From Acidobacteriota bacterium (GTDB lineage: Bacteria > Acidobacteriota > Blastocatellia > UBA7656): 52,887 nt of DNA. The position numbers and the translations under genes are program-made. The notes under the pieces are model-generated. The model was not told the DNA's origin. It saw only the letters and a program-made list of their open reading frames with translations, and made no database searches. This document shows, in pieces, positions 32,469-38,222 of this stretch. Positions within the stretch are counted from its first letter, which is position 1. Each line of letters starts with the position of its first letter. Location: NCBI GenBank assembly GCA_040754075.1, contig JBFMDH010000045.1, positions 1-52,887 on the forward strand, in the 5' to 3' direction.

Positions 32469-32990
32469 TTATCGTTTGGGTTTACTGCGAGTCCGGGGTT
32501 TAGGCGGTTCCTCTTGAGCTTTTTTTCCGCCACCCCACATATCTTTCATCACCTCAACGCCCGGTAAAAACTTTTCCCACATTTGCGGAGCTGCCGCGCC
32601 CATCTCTAACCACCCGCGAAACCGCCTGTCGAACTCTTCTTTGGTTTTCATGTAAGCGGCGAAACTGGTTGCCAGGTAGTTTTTAAAAAAGTCCTGAACC
32701 GTCTCTTCTCGCGACCGCAGCAATTGATAAAGGAAGTTGGTCGGTAATAAACTCCTGTCGTTTTTCTCTTCCTCCAAAATAATCTGCATCAATACGGATT
32801 TGGTGACATCTGCTTTGGTGGTTGAATCAATCACCTGAATATCTTGCCCATCACGGATGAGCTTAATCAAATCCTGATAATTGACATAGCTGCCGGTTTC
32901 CGTGTTATAGAGCCGCCGATTGCCATAACGCTTAATCACCAGCGTATTATCGTCCGCCGCTTTGGTTGCCTGTTTCTTTTTTCTAGCCAT
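32469..32990 (-). CDS. phaR: PhaR-type polyhydroxyalkanoate synthesis regulator
   Basis: PhaR proteins bind both DNA and PHA granules and repress phasin genes until polymer appears. The PHB/PHA accumulation regulator domain is complete: [40 protein letters not shown] and [26 protein letters not shown] precedes ATG 32990, giving a 173-residue protein. The C-terminal third ([20 protein letters not shown]) and a basic tail ending [11 protein letters not shown] follow. A divergent SDR/phasin-like arm starts 225 bp away, with a 20-bp palindrome between; this is the probable operator. No PHA synthase is in the window. Confidence 0.85.
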
Positions 32991-33126
32991 CGCTCTCCTC
33001 GTACCTTTAGAAATACAGGATTGAGGCTTGTTGACGCAAGTGCGAAAATCACGAGTATAAGAAAAATATAAATACTTGCCGGTAAATCGCCGATTATTTC
33101 CCAATCGGTGATGAAAAGAAAAAGCG

Positions 33127-33168
33127 GTCAAGAATTATTTTTCGCATTTGCGAAAAATAATTCTTGAC
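33127..33168. promoter_or_regulatory. 20-bp perfect palindrome between phaR and the SDR gene
   Basis: Arms of 20 bp (33127-33146 and 33149-33168) are perfectly complementary around a 2-nt centre. The half-site core reads CAAGAATTATTTTTCGCA. The right end contains the TTGAC of the SDR -35 box. Divergent genes flank it, so an operator is more likely than a terminator. Confidence 0.75.
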
Positions 33169-33193
33169 TTCAAGTTTGGCGATTTGCTATGCT
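33164..33193 (+). promoter_or_regulatory. Sigma-70-type promoter of the SDR/phasin-like arm
   Basis: TTGACT (33164-33169) and TATGCT (33188-33193) are 18 nt apart, the latter with an upstream TG (extended -10). The transcription start would be near 33200, giving a leader of about 15 nt. The palindrome overlaps the -35, which fits repression. Confidence 0.6.
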
Positions 33194-33214
33194 CACGGCG
33201 TCAGGAGAATCGTC

Positions 33215-34087
33215 ATGCTGCGCAAATTACGCGGAACCACAGCCATCATCACCGGAGCAACCAGCGGTATCGGGCGCGAAACGGCGCTGGAATTTGCCCG
33301 GTCTGGAGTTCGCGTTATCGTGGCGGGGCGTCGTAAAGCGCGGCTTGCGGAAGTGGTTCGCGAGATTGAAACCAAAGGCGGCGAGGCGCTTGCCGTACAA
33401 ACCGATGTTGCCGAGCAAAAACAGGTCGAACGGCTCATCGAAAAAAGCTTAAAACATTTTGGACAGATTGATACGCTGGTCAACAACGCAGGCGTCGGGG
33501 TTGCCGCGCGGTTTGATGAATTATCGCTTGAAGATTTCCGTCGGGTGATGGAAATCAATTTCTGGGGCGCGGTTTACGCCTGTAAAGCGGCGCTTCCGGT
33601 GATGAAGTCGCAAAAAAGCGGCGGTGTGATTATTAATGTCTCATCGATTTTAGGCAAACGCGGCGTGCCGTATGAAACAGCTTACTGCGCCAGCAAATTT
33701 GCGCTCGCGGGATTTTCGGAATCACTTAGAACCGAAGTGATGGCAGATAAAATTGATGTGACGACTATTTTCCCGGGCGCGATTGAAACTGAAATTTTCG
33801 AGACCTCGGCAAATCAAACAGGATTTGAGATGCCCGCATTTATTCCGAAATTTCCGGCGCGGGGCTTGGCACGAGTGATTGTGCAAAACGCGCGATTGCC
33901 GCAACCGGAAGTGGTTATGGCTTTGGATGCGATGGCAATCAATTTCTTTAACACCCTCGCGCCGGGACTGCTGGATTATGCGATGGGATGGGGATTGCCT
34001 TTTGTAGAAGCGTTCGGACGCGGAAAATCTAACGCATCTGCGAAAAAAGGCAACCTCTACACGAATGATGATTCTCAAGAATCGTAA
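33215..34087 (+). CDS. Short-chain dehydrogenase/reductase
   Basis: AGGAG precedes ATG 33215. The Rossmann motif TGATSGIG, the arginines in VIVAGRRKARL that favour NADPH, NNAG, the catalytic serine in IINVSSILGK and YxxxK in AYCASKFAL are all present. The 290-residue protein is longer than PhaB-type acetoacetyl-CoA reductases (about 246), with a C-terminal extension containing FNTLAPGLLDYAMGWGLP that may contact membrane or lipid. It is 80 bp ahead of the phasin-like gene. Substrate is unknown; a role in lipid reduction is suggested only by the neighbours. Confidence 0.88.
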   Translation: MLRKLRGTTAIITGATSGIGRETALEFARSGVRVIVAGRRKARLAEVVREIETKGGEALAVQTDVAEQKQVERLIEKSLKHFGQIDTLVNNAGVGVAARFDELSLEDFRRVMEINFWGAVYACKAALPVMKSQKSGGVIINVSSILGKRGVPYETAYCASKFALAGFSESLRTEVMADKIDVTTIFPGAIETEIFETSANQTGFEMPAFIPKFPARGLARVIVQNARLPQPEVVMALDAMAINFFNTLAPGLLDYAMGWGLPFVEAFGRGKSNASAKKGNLYTNDDSQES

Positions 34088-34167
34088 TGGATTGACTGAA
34101 CATTGAAGTGTCAGGCAGGCAAATGCCTTTGCAATGATTGTTTGGATTTTAGAAAGGAGTTTTAATT

Positions 34168-34767
34168 ATGGCTACGAAAGCAAAATCAGCAAAAGGAAGT
34201 CACGCGAAAAGCAACGAAAATTTACAGGCGGCAGAATGGGCAAGCCAGGTTGCCGAACATCTGGTTGAAGCGCAGAAGAAATGGATTGAAATTACCACTG
34301 AACAAAACGCTCTGGTAATGAAAGCGATTAAAGAAGGCATGGAACTCTATAATACTGCGCCGACGCCTGCGCTTGGCGAATGGGCAAAACAAGGGGTTGA
34401 AAGTTTCGTTGAAGCACAAAAGCGCTGGGCTGAAATGGTGTCGCAACAAAGCACACAACTGTTTGGCGCGCTTCGTGAAGGCGTTAGCTTTAACGGTTCG
34501 GAAATGCTTACTGCGATGGGCGATTATATGGGACAAGGACTTGAAACCGTCATCAAAGCGAGAACCCAGTGGCTCGATTTTGCGGCGCAACAAAATACCC
34601 AGGTCATCAATGCCATGAAAGAAAGCTTCGGCATTGATGAGTCCTCACCGGCTGCGGCGCTGGCGGATTTCGCGCAGCAATCCTTCAATAATTATGTTGA
34701 GGTGCAAAAGCGCTGGCTCGACCTTGCCACCCAATTGCCGTTTTTCGGAATACCGGCTAAGAAATAG
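34168..34767 (+). CDS. Phasin-like protein with four 48-residue repeats
   Basis: Phasins coat storage granules through amphipathic helices. This 199-residue protein is built from units of exactly 48 residues: Trp or aromatic at 24, 72, 120 and 168, a second Trp at 39, 87, 135 and 183, and Gln at 46, 94 and 142. Each unit carries a form of [10 protein letters not shown] followed by QQxxQ. The last unit is cut to about 30 residues. The N-terminus is basic ([15 protein letters not shown]) and the C-terminus ends FFGIPAKK. A good ribosome site (AAAGGAG) precedes the ATG. Between a PhaR regulator and a WS/DGAT acyltransferase, it is a plausible coat protein of a storage droplet. Confidence 0.7.
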
Positions 34768-34885: not shown

Positions 34886-35491
34886 ATGTTAAAAGGCTGG
34901 AGAACTCGAAGCGCAACCCAAAAGGATAAACGTTATTTAAAAAAGCTTGAAGATAACGTGAAACTCCGTGATGGCTCCAGGCTTTCCTTGCGCCCAATCA
35001 AACCTGATGATGATGTGAAACTGCTCGACCTTTACCGGAGGCTTTCACCTACAAGCCTCTATCACCGGTTTTTCACTGTCCCCAAACCTGACCCCAATTA
35101 CGCCAAATATCTGGCAGATGTCGATGCGAAAAATCATTTCGCGCTGGTTGCCGAATTCCATAATCAAATCGTCGGGGTGGCGCGGTTTCACAGAGGCGAC
35201 GAAAGTTCGCAACGTGCCGAAGCGGCTGTAACAGTTGCTGATGACTGGCAAGGTAAAGGGGTGGGTTCAATGTTACTCAAGAAACTTGCAGCGGTTGCAG
35301 TGCAACAGACCATCACCGAATTTGAATGTCAGGTGGCGTTGGACAATGAAGCGATGAAGCGGTTGCTTTCACATTCGGGTTTTAAATTGACGAGTGAGGT
35401 CAAAGAAGGGCGGCTTTACATTACGCTGTTATTAAAACGCGACGCTGGACAACCGCGAAAAAGATTGATAAGAAGAGCAGGCAAACTTTAA
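34886..35491 (+). CDS. GNAT-family N-acetyltransferase (Pat-like)
   Basis: The acetyl-CoA-binding motif A is DDWQGKGVGSMLLKKL, with QGKGVG as the phosphate loop. The start of the domain (LRDGSRLSLRPIKPDDDVKL, then YRRLSPTSLYHRFF) resembles the acetyltransferase domain of Pat-type enzymes that acetylate acyl-CoA synthetases. The 201-residue protein is a stand-alone version. Its stop codon overlaps the ribosome site of the next GNAT gene, so the two are coupled. Control of acetyl-CoA flow to lipid would fit, as inference. Confidence 0.8.
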   Translation: MLKGWRTRSATQKDKRYLKKLEDNVKLRDGSRLSLRPIKPDDDVKLLDLYRRLSPTSLYHRFFTVPKPDPNYAKYLADVDAKNHFALVAEFHNQIVGVARFHRGDESSQRAEAAVTVADDWQGKGVGSMLLKKLAAVAVQQTITEFECQVALDNEAMKRLLSHSGFKLTSEVKEGRLYITLLLKRDAGQPRKRLIRRAGKL

Positions 35492-35504
35492 GGAGATGAA
35501 ATTG

Positions 35505-36071
35505 ATGGCTCGAAAAGCGGCTTCAAAACGCTCATATCCGTGGAACACGACAATCAAAGATAAAAAAGTCACCATTCGATTACTGAATGCAAACGATAAA
35601 GCGGCATTGCTCAATTTTGCGCGCTCTTTGCCCGAAGAGGATTTGTTATTCCTGTCGATGGACATCACCACGCCGCAAGTGGTCGAACGTGCCATCGACA
35701 ATGTCAGTGCCGGTCGCTTCAATGTGATCCTGGCGGAAATGGACGGCAAACTCGTCGGCTATGCCAATCTCATCATCAGCGAACTGACCTGGGTGCGGCA
35801 CCTCGGTGAAATTCATTTGATGATCAGCCGTGAATGTCGTGGCTTTGGGCTAGGCAGCCTCCTGGCGGATGAAGTTTTCGCAATGGCGAAAAATTTGGGG
35901 ATGCAGAAAATCATTGCGCGCATGGCATTTGACCAGCGCGGCGCAATTCAGGTTTTTGAACGCTTGGGATTTCGCGCTGAAGCCCTGCTTTCGGATTTCG
36001 TCATTGATCGCAATGACCGCACCCACGATTTGCTGGTGATGTCGCACGATGTGCGCGGCTTGACCGAGTAG
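35505..36071 (+). CDS. Second GNAT-family N-acetyltransferase
   Basis: AAGGAG at 35490-35495 places the start at ATG 35505; the ATG at 35496 abuts it. The 188-residue protein has motif A SRECRGFGLGSLLADEVF, the RGFGLG loop being the acetyl-CoA phosphate site. QRGAIQVFERLGFRAEALLS is motif B. It shares its N-terminal layout (TIKDKKVTIRLLNANDKAA) with the upstream GNAT, so the pair may be a duplication. Substrate is unknown. Confidence 0.8.
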   Translation: MARKAASKRSYPWNTTIKDKKVTIRLLNANDKAALLNFARSLPEEDLLFLSMDITTPQVVERAIDNVSAGRFNVILAEMDGKLVGYANLIISELTWVRHLGEIHLMISRECRGFGLGSLLADEVFAMAKNLGMQKIIARMAFDQRGAIQVFERLGFRAEALLSDFVIDRNDRTHDLLVMSHDVRGLTE

Positions 36072-36084
36072 TTAGAGATTCAAT

Positions 36085-36525
36085 ATGTCGGCAAACGCTT
36101 TTACCAATTTACAAAATGATTTTTTTCGCAATTTGAATCTGGTGGTCGAACCCTGGATTCGACTGGGAGTCGCTTCGCCTGTTTGTACGCCGACGGGGTT
36201 GATCGTTTTGGAAACCACAGGGCGCAAAAGCGGGCGCAAATTCAATGTGCCGCTTCTGGCAACACGGTTTGGGCGATACGTTTTCGTCAGCACTTTTCGC
36301 AGTGAGTCGCAATGGGTGAAAAATATCGAAGCCAATCCGCCGGTGCGCTACTGGATCGGCGGCAAAGCGCACGTGGGTGTCGCGTTGGTTTTGTCGCAGG
36401 ATTCAACCGGCGACAATTTGGAAAACTTGCCGCCCACACTTAGAAACTTTGCGCAAAACTTGAACCAATATTTCCGGGCATTCGGCGGGTATGCAGCGGT
36501 TTTATTACCGCAAGAAAACCAATAA
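36085..36525 (+). CDS. Deazaflavin-dependent nitroreductase-family protein (DUF385)
   Basis: The family signature TGLIVLETTGRKSGRKFNVP and the end WVKNIEANPPVRYWIGGKAH fit the split-barrel, F420/FMN-binding DUF385 group named after mycobacterial Ddn. At 146 residues the size is normal. The gene follows the second GNAT by 13 bp. Most members are thought to reduce quinones or nitro compounds with F420H2; F420 genes are not in the window, so the cofactor is not proved. Confidence 0.75.
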   Translation: MSANAFTNLQNDFFRNLNLVVEPWIRLGVASPVCTPTGLIVLETTGRKSGRKFNVPLLATRFGRYVFVSTFRSESQWVKNIEANPPVRYWIGGKAHVGVALVLSQDSTGDNLENLPPTLRNFAQNLNQYFRAFGGYAAVLLPQENQ

Positions 36526-36608: not shown

Positions 36609-38222
36609 ATGTCAACACCCAACCTGCATCGCAGACTGACGACCCTGGATGCAAGCTTTCTCTATTTCGAGAGAAAAGAAGCGCCCATGCATATTGGCAG
36701 CGTCATGATTTTTGAAGGCGAAGTGCCGTTTGAAAAATTCGTCGAAAGCGTTGATGCCAAACTGCACCTCTTGCCGCGCTATCAACAGATTGTCGTAAAT
36801 GACCCGTTCAACCTGGGGCATCCGACGTGGGAACAAGCTACGGATTTCGACATCCGCAATCACATTTTTAAATTGCAAATTGACGCCCCGGGCGGCGAAA
36901 AAGAATTGGTAGAACTGGCGAGCAAAATTTTTACGCCGGTGATGAATCGCAAAAAACCGCTCTGGGATATTTATCTGGTTTATGGATTGGAAGGCAATAA
37001 CACGGCGATGATTTCCAGAGTGCATCATTGCATGGTGGATGGGGTGTCGGGGGTTGATCTGGTGAAGCTGTTATTCGATTTTTCGCCAACCCCTGCGCCG
37101 ATTCCGCCTAAACCCGCGCCGCAACCGCGTGAACCGCGACGGGACGCAACGCGACAGTTTTTTGATTCGCTTTTGGGCGGTATGCAGGAAGGCATGAATC
37201 GCTGGATGGAATTTCAAAACGGGCTGTTAAATTTAGCGGAAGCCTGGACGAAACGCGATGTTCGCACCGCCATGCAGGGGATTGCCGGGTTTTTGCCGGG
37301 GCTTGCAACCCCGCCCACGCAATTGCCTTTCAATAAAGCGACCACGGGCGACCGCCGGTTGGTGTGGCAGGAATTTTCTTTTGCCGAAGCGCGGGCGATT
37401 CGCGGCGCTTGCAGCGGCACCGTCAATGATGTGGTTTTAACCGTGCTTTCAGGCGCAGTGGCGCGCTATCTGGCATTGCACAAACAACCGGTCGAAGGTC
37501 GCATGCTGCGGGTGATGGTTCCGGTGAGCCTTCGTCAGGATGACCAACGCGGCGCGCTCGGCAACCTGGTATCGATGTTGCCGGTTGAGATTCCGCTCGA
37601 TATGCGCAATCCCTTAGAACGTTTTCGTTATATCAATGACAAAACCATGAAGATGAAAGCCGGGCGAGTTGCCGAAGGCTTGAATCTGTTTTCAGCATTG
37701 ATGGGCATCTTGCCTGCGCCAGTGCAGGCTCTTGCAGGGGCAATCGCCAACACGCCGGTTGCGCCATACAACATGGTTTCAACCAATGTGCCCGGACCAC
37801 AGGTGCCGCTTTATATGGTTGGCAAAAAAATGATTGCCTATTATCCTTATGTGCCTGTCGGCTACGCCGTCGGTTGCGGTTGCGCGATTATGAGCTATGA
37901 CCAGAAGTTGACTTTTGGCATCACCGCAGACACACATGCGATGCCCGATGTCGAAAATATGAAGAAGTTTTTGCATGAATCGTTTGTCGAATTGCGGACG
38001 CTGGCGGGGGTTGCGGAGATTAAGCCGCCTGAAATAAAAAAGACCAAGCCCGAAGTCAAGCAGAAATCTGTTGAAGTCAAAAGCGAAATAAAGAAACCGG
38101 TGAAGCAGGCACCGGCAAAGGTTGCGAAAAAGGTGACAACCAAAAAAGCGCCAGCGAAAAAGACCGCAGCGAAAAAAACAGCGAGTAAAAAGGCGAGGGC
38201 TGCAAGCGGAAAAGCCAAATAA
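36609..38222 (+). CDS. WS/DGAT acyltransferase with histone-H1-like tail
   Basis: Wax ester synthase/acyl-CoA:diacylglycerol acyltransferases make storage wax esters and triacylglycerol. The active-site HHxxxDG reads [14 protein letters not shown] (His139, His140, Asp144, Gly145). The N-terminus starts [20 protein letters not shown] and the C-terminal domain contains [20 protein letters not shown], as in the family. The usual size is 450-480 residues; here residues 473-537 are an added tail of Lys/Ala/Pro repeats ([20 protein letters not shown]), like histone H1 or PhaF. Such tails bind DNA or RNA. The enzyme may tether lipid droplets to the nucleoid, an inference. Confidence 0.9.

Follow-up and report, generated by a model that had tools for sequence, protein, structure and literature searches.

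The wax ester synthase/diacylglycerol acyltransferase (WS/DGAT) encoded in this stretch of DNA ends in a lysine-rich, histone H1-like tail, which raises the question of whether an enzyme of neutral-lipid synthesis could itself tie a storage droplet to DNA. The window, meaning the whole 52,887-nucleotide stretch analysed, is contig 45 of a 7.58-Mb Acidobacteriota genome assembled in 68 contigs. The enzyme and its two diagnostic regions are:

36609-38222, forward strand: WS/DGAT, 537 amino acids, ATG start and TAA stop, from Pfam and NCBIfam matches
37023-37043, forward strand: HHxxxDG active-site motif, residues 139-145, from sequence and alignment
38007-38219, forward strand: H1-like tail, residues 467-537, net charge +19, from composition, AlphaFold model and codons

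The enzymatic assignment was supported by profile searches. PF03007 and PF06974 matched residues 10-276 and 318-462, respectively, and TIGR02946 matched residues 10-466 over its full length (model positions 1-453 of 453) at 372.5 bits, above the cut-off of 309.95; this score together with the HHxxxDG motif places the protein in the WS/DGAT family. H139, H140, D144 and G145 were invariant in all 30 aligned homologues, and the gene was the sole PF03007 match in the genome at E ≤ 0.001. An intact active site and a core of normal length, both noted in the initial annotation, were thereby borne out, the core ending at about residue 466. The same profile matches the solved relatives 7nxg and 6chj over positions 10-465/466. 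These enzymes share the catalytic core and HHxxxDG motif of the window enzyme, but their chains measure only 463 and 455 residues, whereas the window enzyme adds the 71-residue H1-like tail.

The tail contains 24 K/R, 5 D/E, 13 A and 6 P residues and carries a net charge of +19, compared to +3 for the 466-residue core. In the AlphaFold model, pLDDT was at least 70 for 434 of the 537 residues and below 50 at residues 479-537, which are predicted to be disordered. The initial annotation had described a Lys/Ala/Pro repeat tail; the tail is present, though "repeat" was generous, as it holds three AKK motifs, one PAKK and no full PAKKA. Tandem Repeats Finder returned only a faint repeat of 2.5 copies of a 15-bp unit, lysine is encoded by 13 AAA and 10 AAG codons, and the alanine codons are mixed: the tail is not a microsatellite. 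An assembly artefact was likewise unsupported, given the continuous frame, the mixed codons and the similar tails in other genomes. We also considered whether such tails are a general feature of this proteome and rejected this, having not seen it in a 453-kb sample of the 7.58-Mb genome (twenty 20-kb stretches together with the window), where lysine-rich 40-residue stretches occurred in 2 other ORFs among 372 sampled non-overlapping ORFs. One of the two is an internal linker. The other, the only other terminal arm sampled, is the K/A/T-rich C-terminal tail of a DUF2934 protein (L242:1953-2441).

Lysine-rich arms of this kind are known from storage-granule proteins. Through its lysine-rich C-terminus, MLDS from Rhodococcus jostii binds DNA regardless of sequence and recruits it to droplets, and DNA binding is lost when the lysines of this C-terminus are exchanged for glutamate or the C-terminus is deleted; the rest of MLDS includes an N-terminal droplet-targeting part, and the protein has four PAKKA motifs (PMC5504291). 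MLDS and the window synthase thus both carry a lysine-rich C-terminal arm within a neutral-lipid droplet system, and both loci include a regulator gene, which for MLDS belongs to the same operon, but MLDS has four PAKKA motifs and its arm sits on a droplet protein, whereas the window tail lacks PAKKA and sits on an enzyme; the word "acyltransferase" is absent from the main text of PMC5504291. PhaF of Pseudomonas and PhaM of Ralstonia/Cupriavidus are DNA-binding proteins separate from the synthase that tie polyhydroxyalkanoate (PHA) granules to the nucleoid, and PhaM in addition binds the synthase PhaC1 and activates it (PMC9049629, PMC3556143). In the window, by contrast, synthase and arm form one polypeptide, in a genome where PhaC was not found. 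AlgP of Pseudomonas, whose H1-like C-terminal domain is needed for polyphosphate granule spacing (PMC9239181), also has such a domain, but it is a DNA-binding protein of polyphosphate granules and not a lipid synthase. HBHA of mycobacteria requires a lysine-rich arm for lipid inclusions, and without this C-terminal region it neither binds phosphatidylinositol lipids nor restores inclusions (PMC6176652); it is not an enzyme of lipid synthesis, and its arm was tested for lipid binding.

The window tail shares with MLDS- and PhaF-type tethers the long, disordered, lysine-rich arm. It is not joined to a non-catalytic granule-binding part, the rest of the protein being WS/DGAT, and no phasin family appeared among the Pfam and NCBIfam matches of the enzyme. 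We class the protein as a WS/DGAT that carries the H1-like arm as an accessory; it lies outside the MLDS, PhaF and PhaM families, though by analogy it may work like one of them. To this extent the tail anatomy and the PhaF/MLDS analogy drawn in the initial annotation hold, resting on a 71-residue basic, predicted-disordered tail and on known DNA-binding arms. Our literature search, in which subscription journals were thinly covered, found no published description of an H1-like tail borne by a synthase, and the ties between granule and DNA that were found in print (MLDS, PhaF, PhaM and, as a proposal, AlgP) run through coat or adaptor proteins.

The genes around the synthase provide further context:

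32469-32990, reverse strand: PhaR homologue (PHA synthesis regulator), 173 amino acids from the likely ATG, basic C-terminal end, from TIGR01848 and PF07879
33230-34087, forward strand: SDR family oxidoreductase, start codon assumed, from profile matches
34168-34767, forward strand: phasin-like protein, 199 amino acids, N-terminal arm of 19 residues with net charge +3, from sub-threshold phasin matches
34886-35491, forward strand: GNAT acetyltransferase 1, from Pfam
35496-36071, forward strand: GNAT acetyltransferase 2, a recurrent WS/DGAT neighbour, from Pfam and locus comparison
36085-36525, forward strand: F420H(2)-dependent quinone reductase-type protein, from PF04075
38415-39197, forward strand: alpha/beta hydrolase, a recurrent downstream WS/DGAT neighbour, from Pfam and locus comparison

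PhaR, which stands divergent in the window, the phasin-like protein, the second GNAT acetyltransferase, WS/DGAT and the hydrolase recur as a set in many Acidobacteriota relatives, including a Bryobacteraceae locus (L032). The set recurs in part in Hydrogenedentota, Rhodothermaeota and Chloroflexi, and PhaR, phasin-like protein, hydrolase and WS/DGAT are found together in two genomes of family f16 (L196, L197).

The window PhaR scored 111.6 bits against the TIGR01848 cut-off of 109.45, as expected of a family member, and its second domain, PF05233, fell just under the cut-off (24.1 versus 27). The phasin-like protein fell below the TIGR01841 cut-off (11.7 versus 30.2 bits). Among 24 phasin-like relatives, TIGR01841 matched 8 at E values up to 0.5 (best 8.6e-5) and PF09361 matched 4 (best 0.0082), and unrelated families scored equally on the same set (Arc_capsid_dom 7 of 24, best 2.2e-5; ESAT6_3 7 of 24, best 1.5e-4). 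One of the 24 aligned members had a weak match to the histone H1-like family PF07382 (E 0.0028). The structural model showed four long helices at low confidence (mean pLDDT 59.7), and the profile of the family found nothing convincing among the sequences of solved structures. Judged from these matches, "phasin" is a weak label for the protein at 34168-34767.

The gene names at this locus recall PHA metabolism, and a PHA system was considered and rejected, as PhaC was not found in the genome and PhaC_N does not track the locus. Neither PF07167 nor TIGR01836 matched in this genome at E ≤ 0.001; as a control, TIGR01836 matched in 1 of 14 genomes, below the cut-off. Across 162 genomes of the class, WS/DGAT was found in 32 (including one weak match, G151, E 4.2e-4) and the phasin-like protein in 28, and the two co-occurred in 26, compared to 5.5 expected. 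PhaC_N was matched in 19 of the 162, mostly partially, with most matches covering the last third of the model only and G011 alone matching the whole model; just 2 of the 19 were among the 26 two-gene genomes, and over the 162 genomes PhaC_N had no association with the locus. Because of this co-occurrence in 26 genomes, with PhaC_N unlinked, in this class the phasin-like protein accompanies the neutral-lipid synthase and not a PHA synthase. The lack of a PhaC_N match in 24 of the 26 two-gene genomes suggests a role for PhaR and phasin-like proteins with neutral-lipid droplets in Acidobacteriota. The pair in the window (32469-34767), whose genome has no PHA synthase that could be detected, likewise suggests a circuit of PhaR/phasin type acting on such droplets. 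WS/DGAT homologues of Pseudomonadota have been reported beside PHA-metabolism genes, with a putative phasin in one scaffold (PMC10351704). These loci resemble the window in having WS/DGAT near PHA-type genes or a phasin and differ in phylum and gene sets; a lysine-rich tail goes unmentioned in the passages considered.

To see how widely the tail occurs, as the initial annotation had proposed, we surveyed the C-termini of WS/DGAT homologues. By a single rule, an H1-like tail was present in 7 of 131 distinct homologues with a full C-terminus, a set gathered by similarity and hence non-random, from which one homologue with a cut end was skipped and matches ending before core residue 440 were left uncounted. 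The seven, in three phyla, are the window enzyme, that of G073 (L020/L120; 102 residues, net +16) and the following, all from outside the class:

L170 (G308), WS/DGAT tail: 97 residues, net +33
L212 (G520), WS/DGAT tail: 92 residues, net +17
L223 (G528), WS/DGAT tail: 157 residues, net +28
L057 (Hydrogenedentota), WS/DGAT tail: 76 residues, net +20
L091 (Blastococcus), WS/DGAT tail: 50 residues, net +9

Five more of the 131 had ends of net +9 to +11 that failed the tail rule. The L091 genome also has a PHA synthase match.

The tail is unevenly distributed among close relatives. The closest orthologues from the same class, with cores 67-74% identical, have ends of 18-37 residues with net charge +4 to +7, except G073, so the clade can do without a long tail; in the next WS/DGAT clade (about 50-57% identity) the ends carry net -2 to 0. 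The initial annotation had held that absence of the tail from all relatives would count against it. This is not what was found, as G073 and other lineages are tailed, though the other nearest orthologues are not. On a core tree of 45 rows (a first tree of 50 hand-picked rows, less 8 and plus 3), the seven tails need at least 6 changes, gains and losses being indistinguishable, and the window enzyme was placed beside L130 with weak support (91/55). On the 50-row tree, holding the tails of the window and of G073 together as a single inheritance was disfavoured (p-AU 0.022); a single gain followed by later loss may apply to these two. In 14 Acidobacteriota loci of genus g111 (L175-L188), which shares a family with G308, G520 and G528, genomes of three other genera with H1-like tails, the best-matching WS/DGAT copy has an acidic end (-6 to -11). 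Each of the L175-L188 genomes has two WS/DGAT matches about 1 kb apart.

Basic arms also occur on the phasin-like protein, and their placement within the locus follows a pattern. In the clade without a basic WS/DGAT end, the phasin-like N-terminal arm is usually 50-110 residues long and rich in K, A, P and T; it measures 19-33 residues in the clade whose WS/DGAT ends in a basic stretch. With cut-offs of net ≥ +3 for the WS/DGAT end and net ≥ +7 for the phasin arm, and with phasin-like starts set by rule (first MA or MS), 24 of the 26 two-gene genomes gave a basic end on WS/DGAT only in 11, on the phasin-like protein only in 11, on neither in 2 (G087, G090) and on both in 0. Over these genomes the two charges were inversely correlated (Spearman -0.70, uncorrected for kinship). 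A set of 28 loci, comprising 22 of the 24 genomes (G042 and G052 omitted) and 6 loci added to bring in other families and phyla, whose phasin arms were cut by eye (G076, G055, L057, L196/L173, L197/L174 and L032), gave 12 on WS/DGAT only, 12 on the phasin-like protein only, 4 on neither and 0 on both. Under a strict H1 rule the same 28 loci gave 13 neither, 12 phasin, 3 WS/DGAT and 0 both, a result that is weak alone. Placement is structured by clade: on the tree the WS/DGAT end changes twice and the phasin arm three times, and only 2 pairs were available to an independent-pairs test (p = 1). Because there are so few changes, the either/or placement is without statistical proof; we regard it as a sequence pattern resting on two to three independent changes.

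Two cases that fit this pattern carry information over and above the division between clades. L057, from another phylum, has an H1 tail on WS/DGAT and an acidic N-terminus on the phasin homologue. G073 has a long-tailed synthase in the window's clade and a phasin-like protein that falls in the long-arm clade yet is short-armed; the grouping of these two proteins (L120, L147) with different clades suggests that a gene was transferred or replaced within the locus. The tailed synthase of G308 is outside the reach of the pattern, as neither a phasin-like protein nor PhaR was found in the 20 kb around it.

We also scored every ORF of these neighbourhoods for lysine-rich arms. An earlier rule that counted arginine alone flagged 90 of 998 ORFs, mostly arginine-rich and taken to be spurious frames of GC-rich loci; the final rule requires lysine, and both it and the charge cut-offs were set after the tails were known. 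Under the final rule, 33 Acidobacteriota loci (408 ORFs) yielded 13 arms, namely 2 on WS/DGAT, 10 on phasin-like proteins and 1 on PhaR. Sixty other loci (556 ORFs) yielded 3, on the WS/DGATs of L057 and L091 and on a 194-residue protein of L045, and 10 further loci yielded 2, on the WS/DGAT of G308 and the phasin-like protein of G076; apart from the two f16 genomes (L196, L197), the synthase loci of this last set, including G308 and three of g111, had no phasin-like match. The ORF picker resolves overlaps in favour of the longest ORF, and at least one armed phasin escaped it (L023, which passes in the analysis of 28 loci). Four genomes of genus g14 (G031, G015, G046, G042) have a PhaR that is extended at its N-terminus by a basic segment (net +6 to +10), the length of which, like that of PhaR arms generally, depends on the choice of start. 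The L045 protein (Hydrogenedentes, L045:8350-8934, reverse strand) is encoded about 1 kb from the synthase and has a lysine-rich C-terminus, a layout like that of MLDS or PhaF; it had no Pfam match.

Taken with the known granule tethers, these observations lead us to propose that the tail works as a flexible arm that binds polyanions without regard to sequence, DNA being the most likely target, and that on the synthase it would hold the nascent lipid droplet at the nucleoid. The arm would be carried by the synthase here, by the phasin-like protein in most Pyrinomonadaceae-type relatives and possibly by PhaR in one genus. We give this reading, a probably DNA-directed arm that ties synthase and nascent droplet to the nucleoid and varies in its placement within the locus, slightly better than even chances. 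A granule tether is likelier than it could have seemed from the sequence alone, given that PhaR and a phasin-like protein lie nearby and that relatives bear a comparable arm on their phasin-like protein; the coupling of droplet formation to DNA and segregation suggested in the initial annotation is plausible and in part supported. From the analogy with known tethers we infer DNA binding, presence of the enzyme on droplets and an effect on droplet position or inheritance.

The main competing explanation is that the tail has anionic phospholipids, not DNA, as its target and anchors the synthase on the plasma membrane or the droplet monolayer. HBHA, whose lysine-rich region is needed both for binding phosphatidylinositol lipids and for lipid inclusions, provides a precedent, and for a membrane anchor even ends as short as the basic ones of close orthologues (net +4 to +7) could be enough. 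However, charge alone was insufficient in HBHA, which required native methylation (PMC6176652), and by inspection the mixture of K with A, P and T in the window tail looks closer to H1-like DNA-binding arms than to amphipathic anchors. Phospholipid binding also leaves the arm on the relatives' phasin-like protein unexplained, unless that protein needs it too, and overall we judge it unlikely as the tail's role in place of DNA binding, though one arm could bind both DNA and phospholipid. The spacing role of the AlgP H1-like domain on polyphosphate granules (PMC9239181) may point instead to polyphosphate or RNA as the ligand, or to condensation driven by the tail, by which droplets would be spaced or joined to polyphosphate granules. 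Sequence hardly separates such binding from DNA binding. On reading the ORFs near the synthase we saw no polyphosphate gene, and we hold this account to be quite improbable.

The tail could also be a neutral low-complexity extension, arising by slippage in lysine and alanine codons or by a shifted stop codon and having no function. Its length and sequence do vary widely among close relatives, and other WS/DGATs have variable, even acidic, ends. Against this stand the mixed codons, the scarcity of such stretches among the sampled ORFs of the genome, the repeated changes needed to explain the seven tails, and the confinement of all arms in the 33 Acidobacteriota loci to WS/DGAT, phasin-like or PhaR proteins, so that we consider a functionless tail likewise quite improbable.

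The synthase-borne tether, set against the arm on a coat-like protein in relatives, would amount to a natural experiment on arm position in one locus. A broader proposal treats the H1-like arm as a module that is portable within the locus: selection would maintain about one nucleoid tether, whether on the synthase, the phasin-like protein or perhaps a PhaR-type regulator, and a synthase bearing it would start droplets on the chromosome itself, so that storage would be coupled with inheritance from the first molecule. This proposal is possible but doubtful.

Extensions of another kind were observed in Chloroflexi/Anaerolineae (L044, L047-L050, L056, L062, L063, L074 and L077), where the protein continues for about 200-330 residues past the WS/DGAT core. 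These extensions have an Ala/Pro-rich linker followed, as seen in L044, L047-L049, L056, L062 and L063, by a conserved LFSxxWA-type segment, which may have a sterol-carrier-like fold.
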